Shown: positions 48,562 through 59,976 of the stretch, in pieces | How positions within the stretch are numbered: the first letter of the stretch is position 1 | Layout: each line of letters starts with the position of its first letter | Assembly: GCA_029959285.1 (NCBI GenBank) | Contig: JASCOE010000007.1 | Location: forward strand, 1 to 64,000 | Reading direction: 5' to 3' | Length of the DNA stretch: 64,000 nucleotides | Source of the DNA: Flavobacteriaceae bacterium PS02337 | Lineage (GTDB): Bacteria > Bacteroidota > Bacteroidia > Flavobacteriales > Flavobacteriaceae | Notes under the pieces: generated by a model | Databases searched by the model: none | What the model was told of the DNA's origin: nothing | What the model saw: only the letters and a program-made list of their open reading frames with translations | Made by a program: the position numbers and the translations under genes

Positions 48562-49986
48562 CTATTTAACATCAAACCAAAGTTTAGTAGTCAACAAATC
48601 TTTTCCTTGTACAGCAATTGCAGCTTGGTAACTTGTTCCGTTTAATGACTGTTCAGTTCCTGGGTAGAAGAAACGAGAAGGTAATTTTCCGTCTAAAACT
48701 GTAGCTGGACCGGCTGTCAATACAGGATAATCAAGTCTTCTCCATTCTGTAAAAGCGTCTAAACCTTGTCCGTAAAATGCAATCCACTTTTGTGTACCAA
48801 TAGATTTAGCATAATTTGCAGCATCATATTTTACATCTGTTCTATTTAGATAAGTAGCAATAACTGCTGCATCTGTTATACCAAATTGGTTAAAAGATGC
48901 TGTAATTGCATTTTTATAAAGCTGTTCTGCATCTCCAGCAATAAAACCACGAGCAGCTGCTTCTGCAAGATTGAATAATACTTCAGAATACGAATAAATT
49001 ACAGCTGGCGAAGTCGATGTCAAGAAATATGTTCCCGGTTTTGATGTTTTAGCAAAACCTTGGCTGTTCGCATCACTGTTAGATAATCCATTTCCTCCTC
49101 CAACATATTTACCAACAGTTGCATCAGACGGCAATTGCGCATAAACTGGCAAACGCGGATCAGACAATGCTGTTAATTTATCTACTAATGTTTTTGAAAT
49201 ACGGAAATCATCACGAGTTTCAAACCAAGCAGAAGCTGGATTTTGCTGAGGTGAACTGATATATGTAAATTTGAAAGTATCTGCATTACTGCTTAAAACT
49301 CCTGCAGCATCACTTGTTGCATCAATGGCAGCTTGTTTTGCTAAAGCAGGTTCTCTATCTGAGATTCTCAACGCAATTCTTAGACGAAGGGAGTTTACAT
49401 ATTTTTTCCATTTTGCAATATCTCCTTTGTAAACTAAATCACCTGTTACAGCACCATTTGTAGTATTTAATAAAGATTGAGCTTGTTTTAAATCTTCTAA
49501 TAATCCTGTGTAAACGTCTTTTTGTGTATCGTAAGCTGGCGTTAAACTTTTCCCTGCTTCTTTATACGGAATACTTCCGTAAGCATCTGTCAACAATAAA
49601 AATGTCCATGAACGAAGCGTTAAAGCAATTCCTTTATAATTTGAATTTGCCTGCGCATCTGGAAAATTAATAATCGTATTCAAATCTGTAATCAAAGTTG
49701 CATAACCCGTATTCCACAAAGAAGTGAAAGAAGTATTAGAAACATCGTATCTATCTGGTTCTGTGTACTGAATTTTAGCCCAGTGCTGTACAAATAACAA
49801 AGACGAGTTAAAGTTATTAGCATCTCCCCAATATAAATCAGCTCCTTGTTTTAATGTTCCTGTTAACAAGTAAGGTGCCAATGGAGTTTCAGTCGCATTT
49901 GGATTTTTATTAATATCATCCAAAGTATCACTGCACGAGGTCAGTGTCAATCCAAATAAGATTATATATGATAGCTTTTTTAGCAT
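48562..49986 (-). CDS. SusD-like lipoprotein (SusD-like_2 type)
   Basis: 474 residues. SPII signal ending LTLTSC (Cys18) followed by SDTLDDINKNPNATETPLAPYLLTGTLKQGADLYWGD, the SusD-like_2 opening. Internal SSLLFVQHWAKIQYTEPDRYDV, TWTFLLLTDAYGSIPYKEAGK-like stretch (LRSWTFLLLTDAYGSIPYKEAGK begins at residue about 120) and VIYSYSEVLFNLAEAAARGFIAGDAEQLYKNAI follow. This subtype is often next to non-glycan or peptide-type SusC transporters. It forms an operon with the SusC gene (12-nt gap). Confidence 0.93.
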   Translation of the reverse strand: MLKKLSYIILFGLTLTSCSDTLDDINKNPNATETPLAPYLLTGTLKQGADLYWGDANNFNSSLLFVQHWAKIQYTEPDRYDVSNTSFTSLWNTGYATLITDLNTIINFPDAQANSNYKGIALTLRSWTFLLLTDAYGSIPYKEAGKSLTPAYDTQKDVYTGLLEDLKQAQSLLNTTNGAVTGDLVYKGDIAKWKKYVNSLRLRIALRISDREPALAKQAAIDATSDAAGVLSSNADTFKFTYISSPQQNPASAWFETRDDFRISKTLVDKLTALSDPRLPVYAQLPSDATVGKYVGGGNGLSNSDANSQGFAKTSKPGTYFLTSTSPAVIYSYSEVLFNLAEAAARGFIAGDAEQLYKNAITASFNQFGITDAAVIATYLNRTDVKYDAANYAKSIGTQKWIAFYGQGLDAFTEWRRLDYPVLTAGPATVLDGKLPSRFFYPGTEQSLNGTSYQAAIAVQGKDLLTTKLWFDVK

Positions 49987-49998
49987 GATTTCGTGTTT

Positions 49999-52900
49999 TT
50001 AAAATTTAAGATTAACATTAAGACTGAAATTTCTTGTAGTTGGCAAAGCTAAACTCTCCAAGCCTTGTGCGTTTCCAGTATTGAAAGCCGTTTCTGGATC
50101 GATATTCGGTGCATCTTTGTAAATAAAGAAAAGGTTACGACCAACAGCAGTAATACTTGCGCCTTCTAATCCAAGTCTTCTAGCAAATGCTTTAGTGAAA
50201 TTGTAAGACAGTTTTATTTCTCTCATTTTTACAAAAGTTGAGCTATAAATATAAGCTTCACTAATGTTGTATGATGCTTTGTAATATTCTTGTGCACTAA
50301 GAACTGTAGTGTTTGGACTTCCATTTTCGTATACTCCGTTAAAAATCATACCGTCATCGTATACAGTTGCTCCAGTTGGTGCAGTTCCGTTTACTAACGT
50401 TTTTGTTGTACCGTTTAAGTAGTAATTTAAACCACCATTTGCAGCATCACGTCCTGGAAGTGTATTTGCTAATACTCCTGTGTATGTACCCGTTCTGTTT
50501 GTTCCTGAGAAAATTTCTCCACCTACGCTTGCATCAACAAGGAATGATAATTCAAGATTTTTGTAAGTCAATGTATTCGTTACACCAGCTAAATAATCTG
50601 GAGTATAATGTCCTAAAACTCTTTTCGTCGGATCTGCTTTTGGCAATCCGTTTGCTCCTACTACGATATTTCCGCTAGCATCACGTAAATAAGCAGTTCC
50701 ATAAAGTGCTCCGTAAGCTTGTCCAACAGATGCTAATACATCAACACCTCCAGAAGTACCAATTGTATAGTTTTGAATTTGTTTTGCATAATCCAAAATC
50801 TCTACTTTACTTTTATTTCTAGAATAATTTGCTCCAATATTCCATTTGAAGTTTTCTGTTTGAATAGGGCTTCCATCCAATTGAACTTCAATACCATTGT
50901 TGTTTATTTTTCCAGCATTGATTAACTGTGAATTATAACCACTAGAAGCCGTTGTTTTAATTTCCAAAATCTGATCGAAACTATTTGTGTTGTAATAAGC
51001 AACATCAAAATGCAATCTGTTTTTCCAGAAAGAAGCTTCTAAACCAACTTCTGTTGAACGTGTAGTTTCTGGTTTCAAATTCTCATTCAATTTCTTTTGT
51101 GAAGAAGTTTGAATTGGATTTCCATCAAATGCAGTTTGGAAATTATAAACTGTAGACAATTGATATGGATCTGCATCATTTCCAACTTCAGACCAACCTC
51201 CTCTTAATTTTAAGAAATCAAGTGTATTGCTTTTTAGTTTTAAAGCTTCAGATAAAATTAAACTTCCGTTGATAGAAGGATAAAAATAAGAACGATTGCT
51301 GCTTGGTAAAGTTGATGACCAGTCATTACGAGCTGTAAGATTCAAATATGCATAGTTTTTATATCCGAATTGTGCCGAAGCATAAGCACTATAAACTCTC
51401 AATCTAGACAATGAATTTGATGATGTTAACGGATCTCTAGAGTTTGTTAGTGTATACAAATCTGGAACCGCCAAACGTGGTGCTTTTTGATAATTGTTTG
51501 CATCGCTATGGTTACGAATATTAAAACCAGCAAGAGCGTCTACAGTAAAATCATCGTTTAATTTTTTAGTATAAGTAAAAATACCTTCTGTATTTTGTTC
51601 GTTTACAGTGTAAGCGTCTTCAGCATACGATCCGAATGGAGTTCCGTTTGTACCATATTTAATCGTGTACTTTCTTCTATCATTATAATAATCAACTCCT
51701 GTACGGAATTTAAAATTAAGTCCTTCAGCTAATTTTGCATCCAAATGCACATCACCAATTATACGGTTACGTTGCTGACTTGTTGTATTGTAATACGCAT
51801 TCCAGTATGGATTACTATAGTAACTGTTGTTCCAGTTAACATTTCTGTTGTTTTCAAGTTCGTTGATATCAACTTGACGTCCGAACCATAAAAACTGAAG
51901 CATTACACCCGCAGCACGGTTTCCTGACGGACCACCTGGTAAAGCTGGAGCATTAGTTGTAATATAATTAGCCGTTACTCCTACTTTAATACTTTTAGAA
52001 ATCTGGTAATTTGTATTAATAGTAAAGTTTGTTTTATTTACTTCACTATTAGGAACTGTTCCTAATTGTTTCTGATTGTTTACTCCTAAACGGAAATCTG
52101 ATTTATCGTCAGATCTGGCAACAGAAATACTATTATCATAAGTGATTCCAGTATTAAAGAAGTCTTTTACGTTATTCGGATGTGCAACGAAAGGAACTGC
52201 TTGTCCGTTTGAGAAGAATTGCGGAATAAGACGACCGTCCATTTTTGGTCCCCAGCTTTCGTCAACACCATCATTAACTCCGCCTCCTTTTCCGTCTACG
52301 AAACTAAATCTTCCGTTTGAACCTTGTCCAAATGTATTTTGAAAACTTGGCAAAGTTGCCACTTGAGAAATCGTGATACCAGAATTTAAAGTAATTCCCA
52401 ATCCTTTTTGACTTTTTCCAGATTTTGTTGTAATCAACACAACTCCATGCGCCGCACGCGATCCGTAAAGTGCCGCAGCATTTGGTCCTTTTAAAACTGT
52501 CAATGTTTCAATATCATTCGGATTCAAATCTGCAATTGCATTTTTAAAGTCACGAGTAGCTCCTCCAACACTTCCTAATTGTGAGTTATCTACAGGAACA
52601 CCATCTACCACAAATAACGGTTGGTTGTTACCTGCAATAGAAGTTTCTCCACGAATAATAATACGAGAAGAACCCATGTCACCTTGAGAATTCGTGATAC
52701 GAACACCCGCTAATTTACCGCTAAGACTGTTTAAGAAGTTCGTTTCTTTTGTTTCAGCAATTTCTTTGTTTTTAAGCGCTTGAGTAGTATATCCTAAAGA
52801 TTTTTTTTCTTTAGAAATACCCAAAGCAGTTACAACAACTTCAGATAATTGATTTTGTTCTTCCGTAAGTTCAATAACTACAGCATTTTTATCGACTACT

Positions 52901-53175
52901 ACTTCTGCTTTTTTATATCCAAGAAAACTTACTAATAAAGTGTAAGGAAATTTTTGTCCGGTTTGGAAATAAAATTTTCCGTCGAAATCTGTTTGAACTC
53001 CGTGTGTAGTTCCTTTTATATTAATTGAAGCTCCAATAACTGGTTCCTTTGTAACGGCATCAATTACTGTTCCTTCCAATTTTGACTGAATTAGCGGTTT
53101 TGTTTCTTGCGCATTAACTCCTATGGAAATCAACAAAATACATAACCACGTATATCTTTCTAATTTTTTTTTCAT
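49999..53175 (-). CDS. SusC/RagA-family TonB-dependent outer-membrane transporter
   Basis: 1058 residues. Signal peptide about 1-23 (TWLCILLISIGVNAQ). Carboxypeptidase-regulatory-like domain at about 33-108 (LEGTVIDAVTKEPVIGASI), TonB-box-like SEVVVTALGI (111-120), plug with NDIETLTVLKGPNAAALYGSRAAHGVVLITTKSG, then the barrel ending NFSLNVNLKF. It works with the SusD-like_2 protein. No carbohydrate-active enzyme is adjacent, so the substrate may not be a glycan. The leader upstream is long and carries a small ORF and a hairpin. Confidence 0.96.
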   Translation of the reverse strand: MKKKLERYTWLCILLISIGVNAQETKPLIQSKLEGTVIDAVTKEPVIGASINIKGTTHGVQTDFDGKFYFQTGQKFPYTLLVSFLGYKKAEVVVDKNAVVIELTEEQNQLSEVVVTALGISKEKKSLGYTTQALKNKEIAETKETNFLNSLSGKLAGVRITNSQGDMGSSRIIIRGETSIAGNNQPLFVVDGVPVDNSQLGSVGGATRDFKNAIADLNPNDIETLTVLKGPNAAALYGSRAAHGVVLITTKSGKSQKGLGITLNSGITISQVATLPSFQNTFGQGSNGRFSFVDGKGGGVNDGVDESWGPKMDGRLIPQFFSNGQAVPFVAHPNNVKDFFNTGITYDNSISVARSDDKSDFRLGVNNQKQLGTVPNSEVNKTNFTINTNYQISKSIKVGVTANYITTNAPALPGGPSGNRAAGVMLQFLWFGRQVDINELENNRNVNWNNSYYSNPYWNAYYNTTSQQRNRIIGDVHLDAKLAEGLNFKFRTGVDYYNDRRKYTIKYGTNGTPFGSYAEDAYTVNEQNTEGIFTYTKKLNDDFTVDALAGFNIRNHSDANNYQKAPRLAVPDLYTLTNSRDPLTSSNSLSRLRVYSAYASAQFGYKNYAYLNLTARNDWSSTLPSSNRSYFYPSINGSLILSEALKLKSNTLDFLKLRGGWSEVGNDADPYQLSTVYNFQTAFDGNPIQTSSQKKLNENLKPETTRSTEVGLEASFWKNRLHFDVAYYNTNSFDQILEIKTTASSGYNSQLINAGKINNNGIEVQLDGSPIQTENFKWNIGANYSRNKSKVEILDYAKQIQNYTIGTSGGVDVLASVGQAYGALYGTAYLRDASGNIVVGANGLPKADPTKRVLGHYTPDYLAGVTNTLTYKNLELSFLVDASVGGEIFSGTNRTGTYTGVLANTLPGRDAANGGLNYYLNGTTKTLVNGTAPTGATVYDDGMIFNGVYENGSPNTTVLSAQEYYKASYNISEAYIYSSTFVKMREIKLSYNFTKAFARRLGLEGASITAVGRNLFFIYKDAPNIDPETAFNTGNAQGLESLALPTTRNFSLNVNLKF

Positions 53176-53266
53176 TACTTTGTTTTAGTTTAAAATAAGG
53201 CAAGCAAAAAACAGATTTAATCGATTTTTACTTTCCTCTAGAGATGTACAATTTCTTTAAGCTCTG

Positions 53267-53290
53267 CCATTTCTGTTCCCGCAGAAATGG
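53267..53290 (-). repeat. 9-bp perfect hairpin in the SusC leader
   Basis: CCATTTCTG (53267-53275), loop TTCCCG, CAGAAATGG (53282-53290). It lies about 90 nt before the SusC start codon, after the leader ORF. It may influence transcription or translation of SusC; there is no U-tract for termination. Confidence 0.6.
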
Positions 53291-53431
53291 TTCTCTTTTT
53301 TATCTACACATTCGTTTTTTCATTTTTATTTTTTTTTTTGATTACTATTAGTTTTACTGGCATTTATGCATGGTTTTCCCTTTGAGGGTTATTCTTAATT
53401 GGAAAATTTGAGGAATTTTTAGTGAAGAATT

Positions 53432-53518
53432 TTAATAGCGAATACACATTCGGCAAGGCACGCCAAAAGTTATTGCTTGAAAAGTGAAGTCGGTAATTGA
53501 TAATCTTAAAGTGCTCAT
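53432..53518 (-). CDS. Predicted 28-residue leader peptide of the second SusC/SusD operon
   Basis: ATG at 53516-53518, TAA at 53432-53434. The peptide begins MSTLRLSITDFTF and ends FGVPCRMCIRY, with two Cys, two Met and three Arg. It starts about 22 nt after the predicted transcription start of a near-consensus promoter (53546-53573) and about 255 nt before the SusC start. A short ORF in this position is typical of a translation-coupled regulatory leader. I do not recognise a family and cannot exclude chance. Confidence 0.5.
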   Translation of the reverse strand: MSTLRLSITDFTFQAITFGVPCRMCIRY

Positions 53519-53545
53519 TTTTTAAATTCTACTAATTCGATAGAA

Positions 53546-53573
53546 CAAAGGTAAATTAAAAATTTAAAATCAA
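53546..53573 (-). promoter_or_regulatory. Near-consensus Bacteroidetes promoter of the second SusC/SusD operon
   Basis: On the minus strand TTG (53571-53573) and TACCTTTG (53546-53553, exact TAnnTTTG) are separated by 17 nt, matching the Bacteroidetes primary-sigma promoter. The transcription start would be near 53540, giving a leader of about 365 nt before SusC. The rest of the gap, 53574-53874, is AT-rich and holds no feature I can support. Confidence 0.75.
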
Positions 53574-55680: not shown

Positions 55681-57105
55681 ATGTGGACAATTTGCTCTGA
55701 ATGTCAAGGACTCGGTAAAAAAAGCCAAAGACTTAGTAAAAAAGTAAGGCTTCAATACCAAATGGCATTAGACCAATTTGAAAAAAATAATAGCCAAGGT
55801 ACAGTTCCAGTTCGTCCGAAAGCACATAAAATTATTTGTTTAAAATGCTCTGGATCAGGTTTAATTGAATCTGAAAATCAACTTATTCCAAGTCAAGAAA
55901 CGTATCCTCACGTTGCCATTATTGGTGCCGGAATTGGCGGCGTTGCATTAGCTGTAGCTTGTCTGCATCGCGAAATTCCGTTTACAATTTACGAACGCGA
56001 TGAAAACTTCGAATCTCGTTCTCAAGGTTACGGACTTACTTTACAACAAGCCAGCAAAGCAATTGAAGGTTTAGGAATTTTTTCATTAGACGGTGTAGTT
56101 TCCACAAGACATTTGGTTCACACTGTTGAAGGCAAAGTAATTGGAGAATGGGGAATTCGAAAATGGCTTGAAACAGAAGATAAAAAAGCCACAAAACGAA
56201 CCAATATGCATATTGCACGTCAAGCGTTGCGATTGGCTTTATTGGAGCAATTGGGCGGTCATGATAAAATTCAATGGAAACATCAATTAATCAATTTTAC
56301 AGCATCTGAAAATGAAGCTGTCGATTTGATTTTTCAGGTAAACGGAGAAATAAAAACAGCAAAAGCAGACCTTGTAGTCGGCGCAGATGGTATTCGAAGT
56401 TCAGTTCGAAGATTGCTAATTGGTGACGAAAATACTCCTTTACGCTATTTAGACTGCATCGTAATCTTAGGAATTTGTCCGCTAAATATTTTAGAAAATT
56501 TAAATAGTCCTCTACTCGATTCTGCAACGGTTTTTCAGACTGCAAATGGACATGAACGAATCTACATTATGCCTTACGACGCAGATTCTGTAATGTGGCA
56601 GCTTAGTTTTCCGATGTTAGAAGAAGAGGCAAAAGAATTAAGTTCGAAAGGTCCAAAAGCTTTAAAACAAGAAGCTATTCGAAGAACGCAATGGCACAAT
56701 CCGATTCCACAGATTATAATGGCAACCGAAGAAAATAAAATCTCTGGTTATCCTGTTTATGATCGAGAATTATTGAGTTCAGAACTACTTTCAAAAGGAA
56801 AACAAATTACTTTAATTGGTGATGCCGCGCACCCGATGAGTCCGTTTAAAGGGCAAGGCGCAAATCAAGCTTTATTGGATGCACTTTCTTTGGCGCGCAA
56901 AATTTTTAAAGGCTGTAAATCGGCAGAGCATTGGAAAAAAGCTGGAATTAGAGAAAGTGTTTTAAACGAATTTGAAACTGAAATGCTCAAACGAAGCGCT
57001 GTAAAAGTGAAAGATTCGGCAGCAGCAGCAGAATTTCTTCATTCTGAAATTGTGCTTTATGAAGGAAATGAACCTCGAGGACGTTGCCTCAATAAAAAAA
57101 AATAA
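55681..57105 (+). CDS. FAD-dependent monooxygenase with an N-terminal CxxC-CxxC zinc-finger-like domain
   Basis: 474 residues. Residues 5-8 (CSEC) and 53-56 (CLKC), each followed by G-x-G as in DnaJ-type CxxCxGxG repeats, form a zinc ribbon around a basic helix. From residue 77 a para-hydroxybenzoate hydroxylase-type flavoprotein follows: GAGIGGVALAVACLHREIPFTIYERDENFESRSQGYGLTLQ (FAD), DLVVGADGIRSSVRRLL (DG motif) and LIGDAAHPMSPFKGQGANQALLDA (GD motif). It would hydroxylate an aromatic or similar compound using NAD(P)H and O2. The zinc-finger-like part is not normal for this enzyme class. Confidence 0.9.
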   Translation: MWTICSECQGLGKKSQRLSKKVRLQYQMALDQFEKNNSQGTVPVRPKAHKIICLKCSGSGLIESENQLIPSQETYPHVAIIGAGIGGVALAVACLHREIPFTIYERDENFESRSQGYGLTLQQASKAIEGLGIFSLDGVVSTRHLVHTVEGKVIGEWGIRKWLETEDKKATKRTNMHIARQALRLALLEQLGGHDKIQWKHQLINFTASENEAVDLIFQVNGEIKTAKADLVVGADGIRSSVRRLLIGDENTPLRYLDCIVILGICPLNILENLNSPLLDSATVFQTANGHERIYIMPYDADSVMWQLSFPMLEEEAKELSSKGPKALKQEAIRRTQWHNPIPQIIMATEENKISGYPVYDRELLSSELLSKGKQITLIGDAAHPMSPFKGQGANQALLDALSLARKIFKGCKSAEHWKKAGIRESVLNEFETEMLKRSAVKVKDSAAAAEFLHSEIVLYEGNEPRGRCLNKKK

Positions 57106-59191: not shown

Positions 59192-59976
59192 ATGTATTTA
59201 TCTAATAGAAAAACGATTATGTTTATTACAGGGGCATTTATGAGTCATTCTTGCTGGGAAGAATGGATTGTTTTTTTTGAAAATAAAGGTTATAAAACCG
59301 TCGCTCCTCCTTGGCCTCACAAAAACGAAACCGCAGAAAAATTAAGAAAAACTAATTCTTCTAAAATTGCTACTATTCGTCTCAACGATTTACTAGATTA
59401 TTACACAGAAATCATCGAAAAACTTCCCGAAAAACCTATTCTTATTGGACATTCTTACGGAGGTCTTTTGACACAATTATTACTTCAAAAAGATTTGGGT
59501 GCAGCTGGAATTTGTTTACATTCTATTCCGCCGAGTAATTTAATTCGTTTCAATTTTTCTTTTTATAGAAAGATCTGGAGTGTTTTTAATTTCTTTCATT
59601 CTAGAAAAAAAAAAACTATTTGTTGTCTTTTAATAAATGGCAATATTTTTTCACCAATGAAATGTGTTTTGACGAACAAAAAACAACTTATGAAAAACTG
59701 GTAATTCCAGAATCAAAAAACATTTTATGCGATATTTTTTCTAATGCTGCTAAAATCGACTTTAAGAAAAAACACGCTCCAATTTTATTTTTATCGGGTT
59801 CAGAAGATCATTTTGTTGCGGCTTCCATTCAATATGCTAACTTCAAAAAATATAAAAACATTCATTCAATTACATGTTATAAAGAGTTTAAAGACAATCA
59901 GCATTTGGTTTTAAAACAGCAAAATTGGGATTGCATTGCCGAATTTATTGCAAACTGTTTAGAGAAACTTTCTTAA
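59192..59976 (+). pseudogene. Alpha/beta hydrolase split by a frameshift in an A11 tract
   Basis: Frame 1 (59192-59704) carries MFITGAFMSHSCWEEWIVFFE, PPWPHKNET and elbow ILIGHSYGGLLTQLLL, then loses homology after RKIWSVFNFFHSRKKK. Frame 2 (from about 59616 to 59976) continues the enzyme: LLSFNKWQYFFTNEMCFDEQ, then the acid ILFLSGSEDHFVAASI and His region FKDNQHLVL. The switch is at eleven A (59605-59615); twelve would restore one frame. It could be a true inactivation, a sequencing error, slippage-based expression, or phase variation. Its stop overlaps the next gene's stop. Confidence 0.8.

Follow-up and report, generated by a model that had tools for sequence, protein, structure and literature searches.

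To understand which cue controls a SusC/SusD importer whose susC gene (49999–53175) is preceded by a leader of ~365 nt on the minus strand, we analysed the window (the whole stretch of DNA, 64,000 nucleotides) together with related leaders from other genomes. Pairs of this type are generally interpreted as importers of glycans under the control of sugar sensors. We consider it moderately probable that this leader is a two-layer sulfur-responsive control region, in which an Rrf2-type dyad is combined with ORFs containing Cys codons. The features discussed below are as follows.

48562–49986, minus strand: SusD-like lipoprotein (PF12771)
49999–53175, minus strand: SusC/RagA-family TonB-dependent importer (TIGR04056, E = 1.4e-187; nearest solved structure BT_2264)
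53197–53238, minus strand: SL2, second stem-loop of the RNA element (covariation and fold)
53267–53290, minus strand: SL1, the hairpin of an earlier note on this DNA, part of the conserved RNA element (sequence; model match at 53291–53196)
53300–53323, minus strand: ORF2, MKKRMCR then stop, the in-frame counterpart of MKKRMCCR then stop in relatives (sequence and orthologues)
53362–53431, minus strand: C-rich, G-poor stretch behind ORF1 (C 0.21, G 0.07), a candidate Rho entry site (base composition)
53432–53518, minus strand: ORF1, 28 codons, MSTLRLSITDFTFQAITFGVPCRMCIRY then stop, weakened member of a Cys-ended leader-peptide family (sequence, orthologues and profile)
53528–53544, minus strand: operator-like dyad TCTATCGAATTAGTAGA, 17 nt, over the inferred start site (four exact TCTAYNNNATTAGTAGA copies; orthologues)
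53546–53573, minus strand: promoter TTG-N17-TACCTTTG (read from the sequence)

The promoter, which we take to match the primary-sigma type consensus of Bacteroidota, is present where the earlier note had put it. The sequence also agrees with its statement that the first ATG of the leader, at 53518, opens a 28-codon ORF, and the perfect 9-bp hairpin CCATTTCTG/CAGAAATGG with a 6-nt loop was confirmed at 53290–53267. The dyad, ORF2 and SL2 were absent from that note. Taken singly, the promoter, ORF1 and the hairpin are each only mildly unusual: when the 370-nt leader was shuffled 1000 times with its dinucleotides preserved, 12.6% of the shuffles had at least 28 codons in the ORF opened by the first ATG, 0.3% had such an ORF with two Cys among its last eight residues, and 4.7% had a perfect 9-bp hairpin (loop of 3–10 nt). 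Their significance comes from comparison. The best 80 of 173 SusC loci were compared, and six of the 80, from outside Flavobacterium-like genomes and with neither dyad nor SL1, were set aside, leaving 74 orthologues (71 named Flavobacterium, two Flavobacteriaceae bacterium and one [Flexibacter]). The conserved parts among these 74 from the best 80 of 173 are the operator-like site (71/74), an SL1-like hairpin with at most four mismatches (72/74) and the ORF2 frame (72/74). Judged by the criterion set in the earlier note, ORF1 keeps its start, stop and length in Flavobacterium notoginsengisoli and Flavobacterium chungbukense but not beyond these two, and only nine of the 74 have any Cys-rich ORF1 at all, one of them (L200) perhaps by chance. 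Four orthologues outside Flavobacterium (L256, L261, L264 and L265) have the same SusC/SusD pair, with SusC 69–75% identical; in place of the leader, AhpC-TSA/redoxin-domain or PBP-like genes are found in the vicinity.

When the window was searched in six frames with a profile of 17 family peptides that included no MST... type, ORF1 came top among 4227 segments (E = 0.003), and we therefore regard ORF1 as significant; its score stems from the tail (CxMC). The family itself accompanies paralogous operator sites of the TTTGTCTAT type, of which 51 were listed in 150 Flavobacterium genomes. All were inspected and counted by hand, and all 51 were followed within ~40 nt by an ORF of 27–29 codons with at least two Cys in the last eight residues, typically MKTTESIS.YILPKKYTYNTFCYMCFCC. 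When 40 of those leaders were used for controls, such a Cys-ended ORF was found once in the rest of the leader (1/40) and never on the antisense strand (0/40). The genes behind these leaders encode SusC proteins of several kinds, a sulfatase or a cysE-like protein. The ORF was exactly 28 codons long in 39 of 40 leaders and 29 in the other, and it started with TTG in 30, GTG in ten and ATG in none, though the frame is otherwise strongly kept; these weak starts may have been selected for. Across 34 distinct 28-codon sequences (two RMCCCC-type sequences were set aside), the last two Cys were invariant with changes between TGT and TGC, the stop was kept in all 34, and pN/pS was 0.43, so that the comparison of synonymous and nonsynonymous changes proposed in the earlier note came out as purifying selection.

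How far does the window ORF1 still belong to this family? F. notoginsengisoli (MSTSRLPIIDYTSQKTAFGMSCRMRWCC) and F. chungbukense (MSTLRLHSIDYTSQKTTLSMSCYMCWCS) have the same 28 codons, and the SusC proteins of both are 97% identical with that of the window; the third-closest orthologue, L192 (SusC 96%), is without an ORF1-like ORF. Relative to these two sisters, ORF1 of the window seems to have lost its last Cys codons. Since the sisters keep the 28 codons and few orthologues have a Cys-rich version, we read the ORF1 peptide as real in the source species but apparently decaying. A profile that included the window peptide matched three of 249 genomes of the bacterial family, one of them marginally in another genus (G165, E = 0.008). 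As in attenuators of the trp/his type, a short ORF lies near the 5' end of a long leader; the cluster of regulated codons is found across the family but is weak in the window, where ORF1 has two Cys codons and ORF2 one.

ORF2, the second short frame, reads MKKRMCCR in 26 of the 74 orthologues (from the best 80 of 173). Of its 72 copies in that set, 61 contain Cys, 32 of them as CC and a further 29 as only one Cys or as non-adjacent Cys, and 11 have none; in paralogous SusC leaders the peptide is mostly MK.MQ.CCCK. Because the ORF2 stop lies 9 nt 5' of SL1, a terminating ribosome would interfere with SL1 more strongly than would a ribosome paused at a Cys codon; this should be taken as geometry and not as evidence. 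Pairing of the SL1 loop with the ORF2 Cys codons, which was evaluated for the window leader type only, was rejected: 4.70 of six pairs were formed in 69 leaders compared with 4.64 after shuffling, and 111 of 500 shuffles scored as high. Also discarded was a third ORF (in the window, MAELKEIVHL) that would begin within the 3' arm of SL1, as its ATG is absent in leaders such as L123 and its sequence is not kept.

The operator-like dyad is associated with sulfur genes. Besides the window leader, exact TCTAYNNNATTAGTAGA copies in the source genome stand 5' of a cysE-like gene and 5' of a SusC–SusD cluster with three sulfatases, a rhodanese and a YeiH-like gene; the fourth, C4, has no evident sulfur gene or Cys leader. 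A copy with one mismatch precedes metY (TIGR01326, above its cut-off), behind which lie homoserine-dehydrogenase-like and metX-like genes. One dyad copy is located 3' of an Rrf2 gene and immediately 5' of a TonB receptor. The inspected one-mismatch copies C9, C33 and C53 were without evident sulfur gene or Cys leader, so the putative regulon is read with the caveat that some dyad copies are not at sulfur genes. With a relaxed pattern, two related boxes were detected in the interval that separates a cysH-cysD-cysN-sulfite-reductase operon from a divergent gene, TauE-like by eye; no Cys leader was found 5' of this operon in the source genome. The boxes are ~1 kb from an Rrf2 gene within a sulfate-assimilation/methionine cluster, and the second NCBIfam match of that gene is CymR (6.1e-22). 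In its Rrf2 gene and its sulfate-assimilation/methionine cluster with dyad boxes, the arrangement resembles the CymR/IscR-type Rrf2 cysteine regulators, but the candidate scores 78 bits against a CymR cut-off of 195 and its binding to the dyad is putative. Since the genome has five Rrf2 genes, naming the cognate regulator is a guess. With at most two mismatches, a longer dyad pattern matched in 38 of 150 Flavobacterium genomes, compared with four hits for the reversed control pattern. Outside the genus, 15 exact sites were found in 147 genomes and no such leader ORF appeared in the script listing for them; one site lies 5' of a sulfite-reductase-like gene with a PAPS reductase (PF01507) adjoining, and another 5' of an S-adenosylmethionine synthetase (by eye). 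A dyad shared by sulfur genes, together with a regulator gene inside the set, is what characterizes an Rrf2/CymR-type sulfur regulon, and we propose one here.

These results raise the question of whether a repressor of the Rrf2 type at the dyad does all of the regulation, with ORF1 and ORF2 as relics of an ancestral Cys attenuator. Among the 74 orthologues from the best 80 of 173, the dyad indeed outnumbers the Cys-rich ORF1 (71 against nine), and 11 of 72 ORF2 copies have no Cys. However, the ORF2 frame is kept in 72 of these orthologues and SL1/SL2 covary (see below), neither of which a repressor site alone needs, and a bare repressor has no need of a 365-nt leader. Control by transcription initiation only therefore strikes us as rather unlikely.

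SL1 and SL2 together are a covarying RNA element with no Rfam counterpart. In a MAFFT alignment (A1), SL2 was misaligned between leader types, and we therefore built a model (R1) on 13 paralogous leaders (A2) and then used it to align the rest. In A2, SL1 was invariant, and SL2 showed 17 cells changed on both sides of the stem compared with 6.0 after shuffling and at most four in slid controls. R1, trained without the window type, found the window element at 53291–53196 (40.9 bits, E = 3e-4), and its sole other match in the source genome was a training sequence. In the alignment of 47 leaders (A4), 124 cells were changed on both sides compared with 36.8 after shuffling and at most 22 in slid controls, although A4, unlike A2, was fitted to the R1 structure and is thus biased towards it. 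From 62 matches, A4 left out 11 short ones on the opposite strand, which echo the palindromic SL1, and four in the sense orientation (L101, L127, L134 and L032). The covariation lies in SL2 and the outer pairs of SL1, whereas the SL1 core and the linker are near-invariant, and a 111-nt stretch of the SL2 region folds at z = -2.0 relative to shuffles. The element stands 20–45 nt from the susC start codon. Under the stricter filters used for family and phylum genomes, at which weak matches are lost, model R2 matched three of 249 family genomes (one marginally, in another genus) and nine of 247 phylum genomes, all Flavobacterium. For the match in another genus (G170, E = 0.0026), inspection of its 3-kb stretch by eye revealed no sulfur gene, and it was taken as chance. 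In paralogues, the 5' arm of SL1 could be paired by eye with the susC start, but this pairing is not kept in the window type and was dismissed. A hairpin inside ORF1 (TATAAC/GTTATA) also appeared in paralogue folds, its changes being mostly mismatches or G-U by eye.

Could SL1/SL2 be an independent sensor or a protein-binding element, riboswitch-like or controlling translation near the susC start? Its covarying stems, near-invariant core and closeness to the start codon would suit such a role, as would its presence where ORF1 is gone. The element is, however, preceded by an ORF2-like frame in 72 of the 74 orthologues (from the best 80 of 173). The earlier note had found no match to S-box, cobalamin or TPP riboswitch cores, and no Rfam family reached its gathering score in the window, nor did any in four related loci. 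Most metabolite riboswitches are not known to be restricted to one genus, whereas this element is in these scans. Thus we regard an RNA sensor acting by itself as improbable.

The earlier note had placed the hairpin in a plan of attenuation, but a role of the hairpin as the terminator is not supported. The T-rich tail that follows SL1, and with it a strong terminator-like match, is on the plus strand, and on the sense strand a scan for intrinsic terminators of the window leader gave just a weak match inside ORF1 (53467–53449). An intrinsic terminator with a competing antiterminator, as in trp/his-type attenuation, was found for metY leaders (see below) but not in the window. SL2 was rejected as an intrinsic terminator, as its tail is T-rich but without a T-run and the terminator scan did not report it. 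What the leader does have is the arrangement of tna-like, Rho-dependent attenuation, with the critical codons at the stop and a C-rich, G-poor stretch behind them: in the ORF1 family, the C/G ratio in the 70 nt behind the stop is 2.26, compared with 1.21 in the rest of the leader. Cis-antisense RNAs have been reported for Bacteroides PULs, and SL1 with its plus-strand T-rich tail (an A-run of at least five precedes SL1 in 97 of 103 leaders) might terminate one opposite the susC leader, but this seems improbable, as a full antisense promoter (TTG-N16-20-TAnnTTTG) was found in none of the 103 leaders, a lone TAnnTTTG in 16 compared with five in the reversed control, and both the ORF2 frame next to SL1 and the covariation in SL2 point to an RNA of the sense strand.

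We return to the two-layer control region, a reading built on what was observed, namely the features of the sequence, purifying selection on the family of ORF1, covariation in the RNA and the association with sulfur genes. Because of the ORF1 family, the dyad at sulfur genes, ORF2 and the covarying element, the cue is probably cysteine or sulfur, sensed through translation of the leader, and import is probably turned up when cysteine is short. In the first layer, a CymR-like regulator of the Rrf2 family would occupy the dyad over the start site and keep transcription low when cysteine is plentiful. The second layer would be the transcript itself, whose short frames have Cys codons near their ends. 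With charged Cys-tRNA available, ribosomes would complete ORF1 and leave, exposing the C-rich, G-poor stretch, at which Rho may end transcription; with cysteine short, a ribosome waiting on the Cys codons near the stop would shield this stretch and allow transcription into susC–susD. SL1/SL2 may then act as a second checkpoint before susC, with a ribosome at the ORF2 stop disturbing SL1 and one waiting on a Cys codon disturbing it less. The source species itself has a weakened ORF1, with two Cys codons, and a single Cys codon in ORF2. The comparative data (pN/pS, the dyad at sulfur genes and a SusC nearest to BT_2264) fit the idea of the earlier note that a leader peptide controls the importer in response to an amino acid or sulfur compound, but neither the hairpin as terminator nor the cited ORF as conserved part is supported. 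More tentatively, it is possible that sulfur acquisition in Flavobacterium, importers included, uses serial Cys-codon checkpoints under one Rrf2 operator, a 28-codon peptide being followed by one of 7–10 codons before an SL1/SL2 that is opened or closed by ribosome position.

Other leaders of the genus have Cys ORFs. The metY start was found within the stretch in 16 of 21 loci examined, and all 16 leaders carried a Cys-rich, Met-rich ORF (e.g. MKTIAKRNMMCCKMMQMCIPHCCCQK) and a hairpin with a T-run, so by its sequence the metY leader looks like textbook attenuation. Five of these leaders, all from other Flavobacterium genomes (L150, L151, L153, L155 and L156), have two tandem Cys/Met-rich ORFs 5' of metY with a T-run hairpin behind each. 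At nine of 11 loci, a TonB-dependent receptor leader has an ORF of 28–37 codons ending in MCMC, MCMCW or similar (L118:5420–5606, which is C44 of the source genome, L089, L094–L097, L099, L100 and L108); in C44, an Rrf2 gene lies immediately 5' of the receptor. As metY and TonB receptor leaders also carry Cys ORFs, Cys-codon leaders look like a general device of Flavobacterium.

Such leaders are known from other bacteria, and what is new is their presence on a SusC/SusD importer, where they are confined to Flavobacterium in these scans apart from two marginal matches. In mycobacteria, poly-Cys leader peptides were reportedly described by Canestrari in 2020. The accessible text on actinobacterial cys and cbs operons describes poly-Cys leader peptides and suggests Rho (PMC1262725); like our leaders, they have several Cys codons in a row close to the stop and precede sulfur genes, they lack a conserved terminator hairpin, and Rho has been proposed for them. 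The leaders described here differ in lying 5' of SusC/SusD and sulfatase genes in Bacteroidota, in an ORF1 that is not leaderless, in the added second Cys ORF, RNA element and dyad operator, and in sequence. The uORFC-8-2 motif of Rhodobacterales, a Cys-codon upstream ORF 5' of cysS, is similar in its short ORF with tandem Cys codons, but according to the accessible text it includes an intrinsic terminator and forms two stems, the first of which contains the Cys codons (PMC8632094), and the metY leader of the source genome is closer to it than is the window leader. Signs of leader-peptide attenuation 5' of amino-acid operons were reported in the same genus, in Flavobacterium psychrophilum, but cysteine, SusC or an Rrf2 operator is not named in the accessible text (PMC9723704), and leader-like small ORFs were reported in Bacteroides thetaiotaomicron, likewise from accessible text (PMC7366714). 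Within the literature within reach, which excluded most subscription papers, we found no description of Cys leaders before SusC/SusD and no Rrf2 sulfur regulon in Flavobacterium.

The importer itself is consistent with a sulfur-related cue. Among solved structures, BT_2264 of PDB 5fq6, which we take to import peptides, has the sequence closest to that of the window SusC (9.4e-136; next SusC 9.5e-47). As judged from this similarity, the SusC/SusD pair is probably a peptide importer for the supply of sulfur amino acids, and the absence of a nearby glycosidase also fits. Cysteine control of SusC/SusD, if true, would give a cue and probably a peptide or sulfur substrate to importers lacking one; the signature of dyad, 28-codon Cys leader, MK..MCC-type ORF and SL1/SL2 marks sulfur importer and sulfatase loci genus-wide and makes ribosome-sensed control in Bacteroidota directly testable. 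Elsewhere in the window, 55681–57105 encodes an FAD-dependent monooxygenase with an N-terminal CxxC...CxxC extension (by eye), and two overlapping ORFs at 59192–59976, together like one alpha/beta hydrolase (by eye), are possibly a frameshifted gene.
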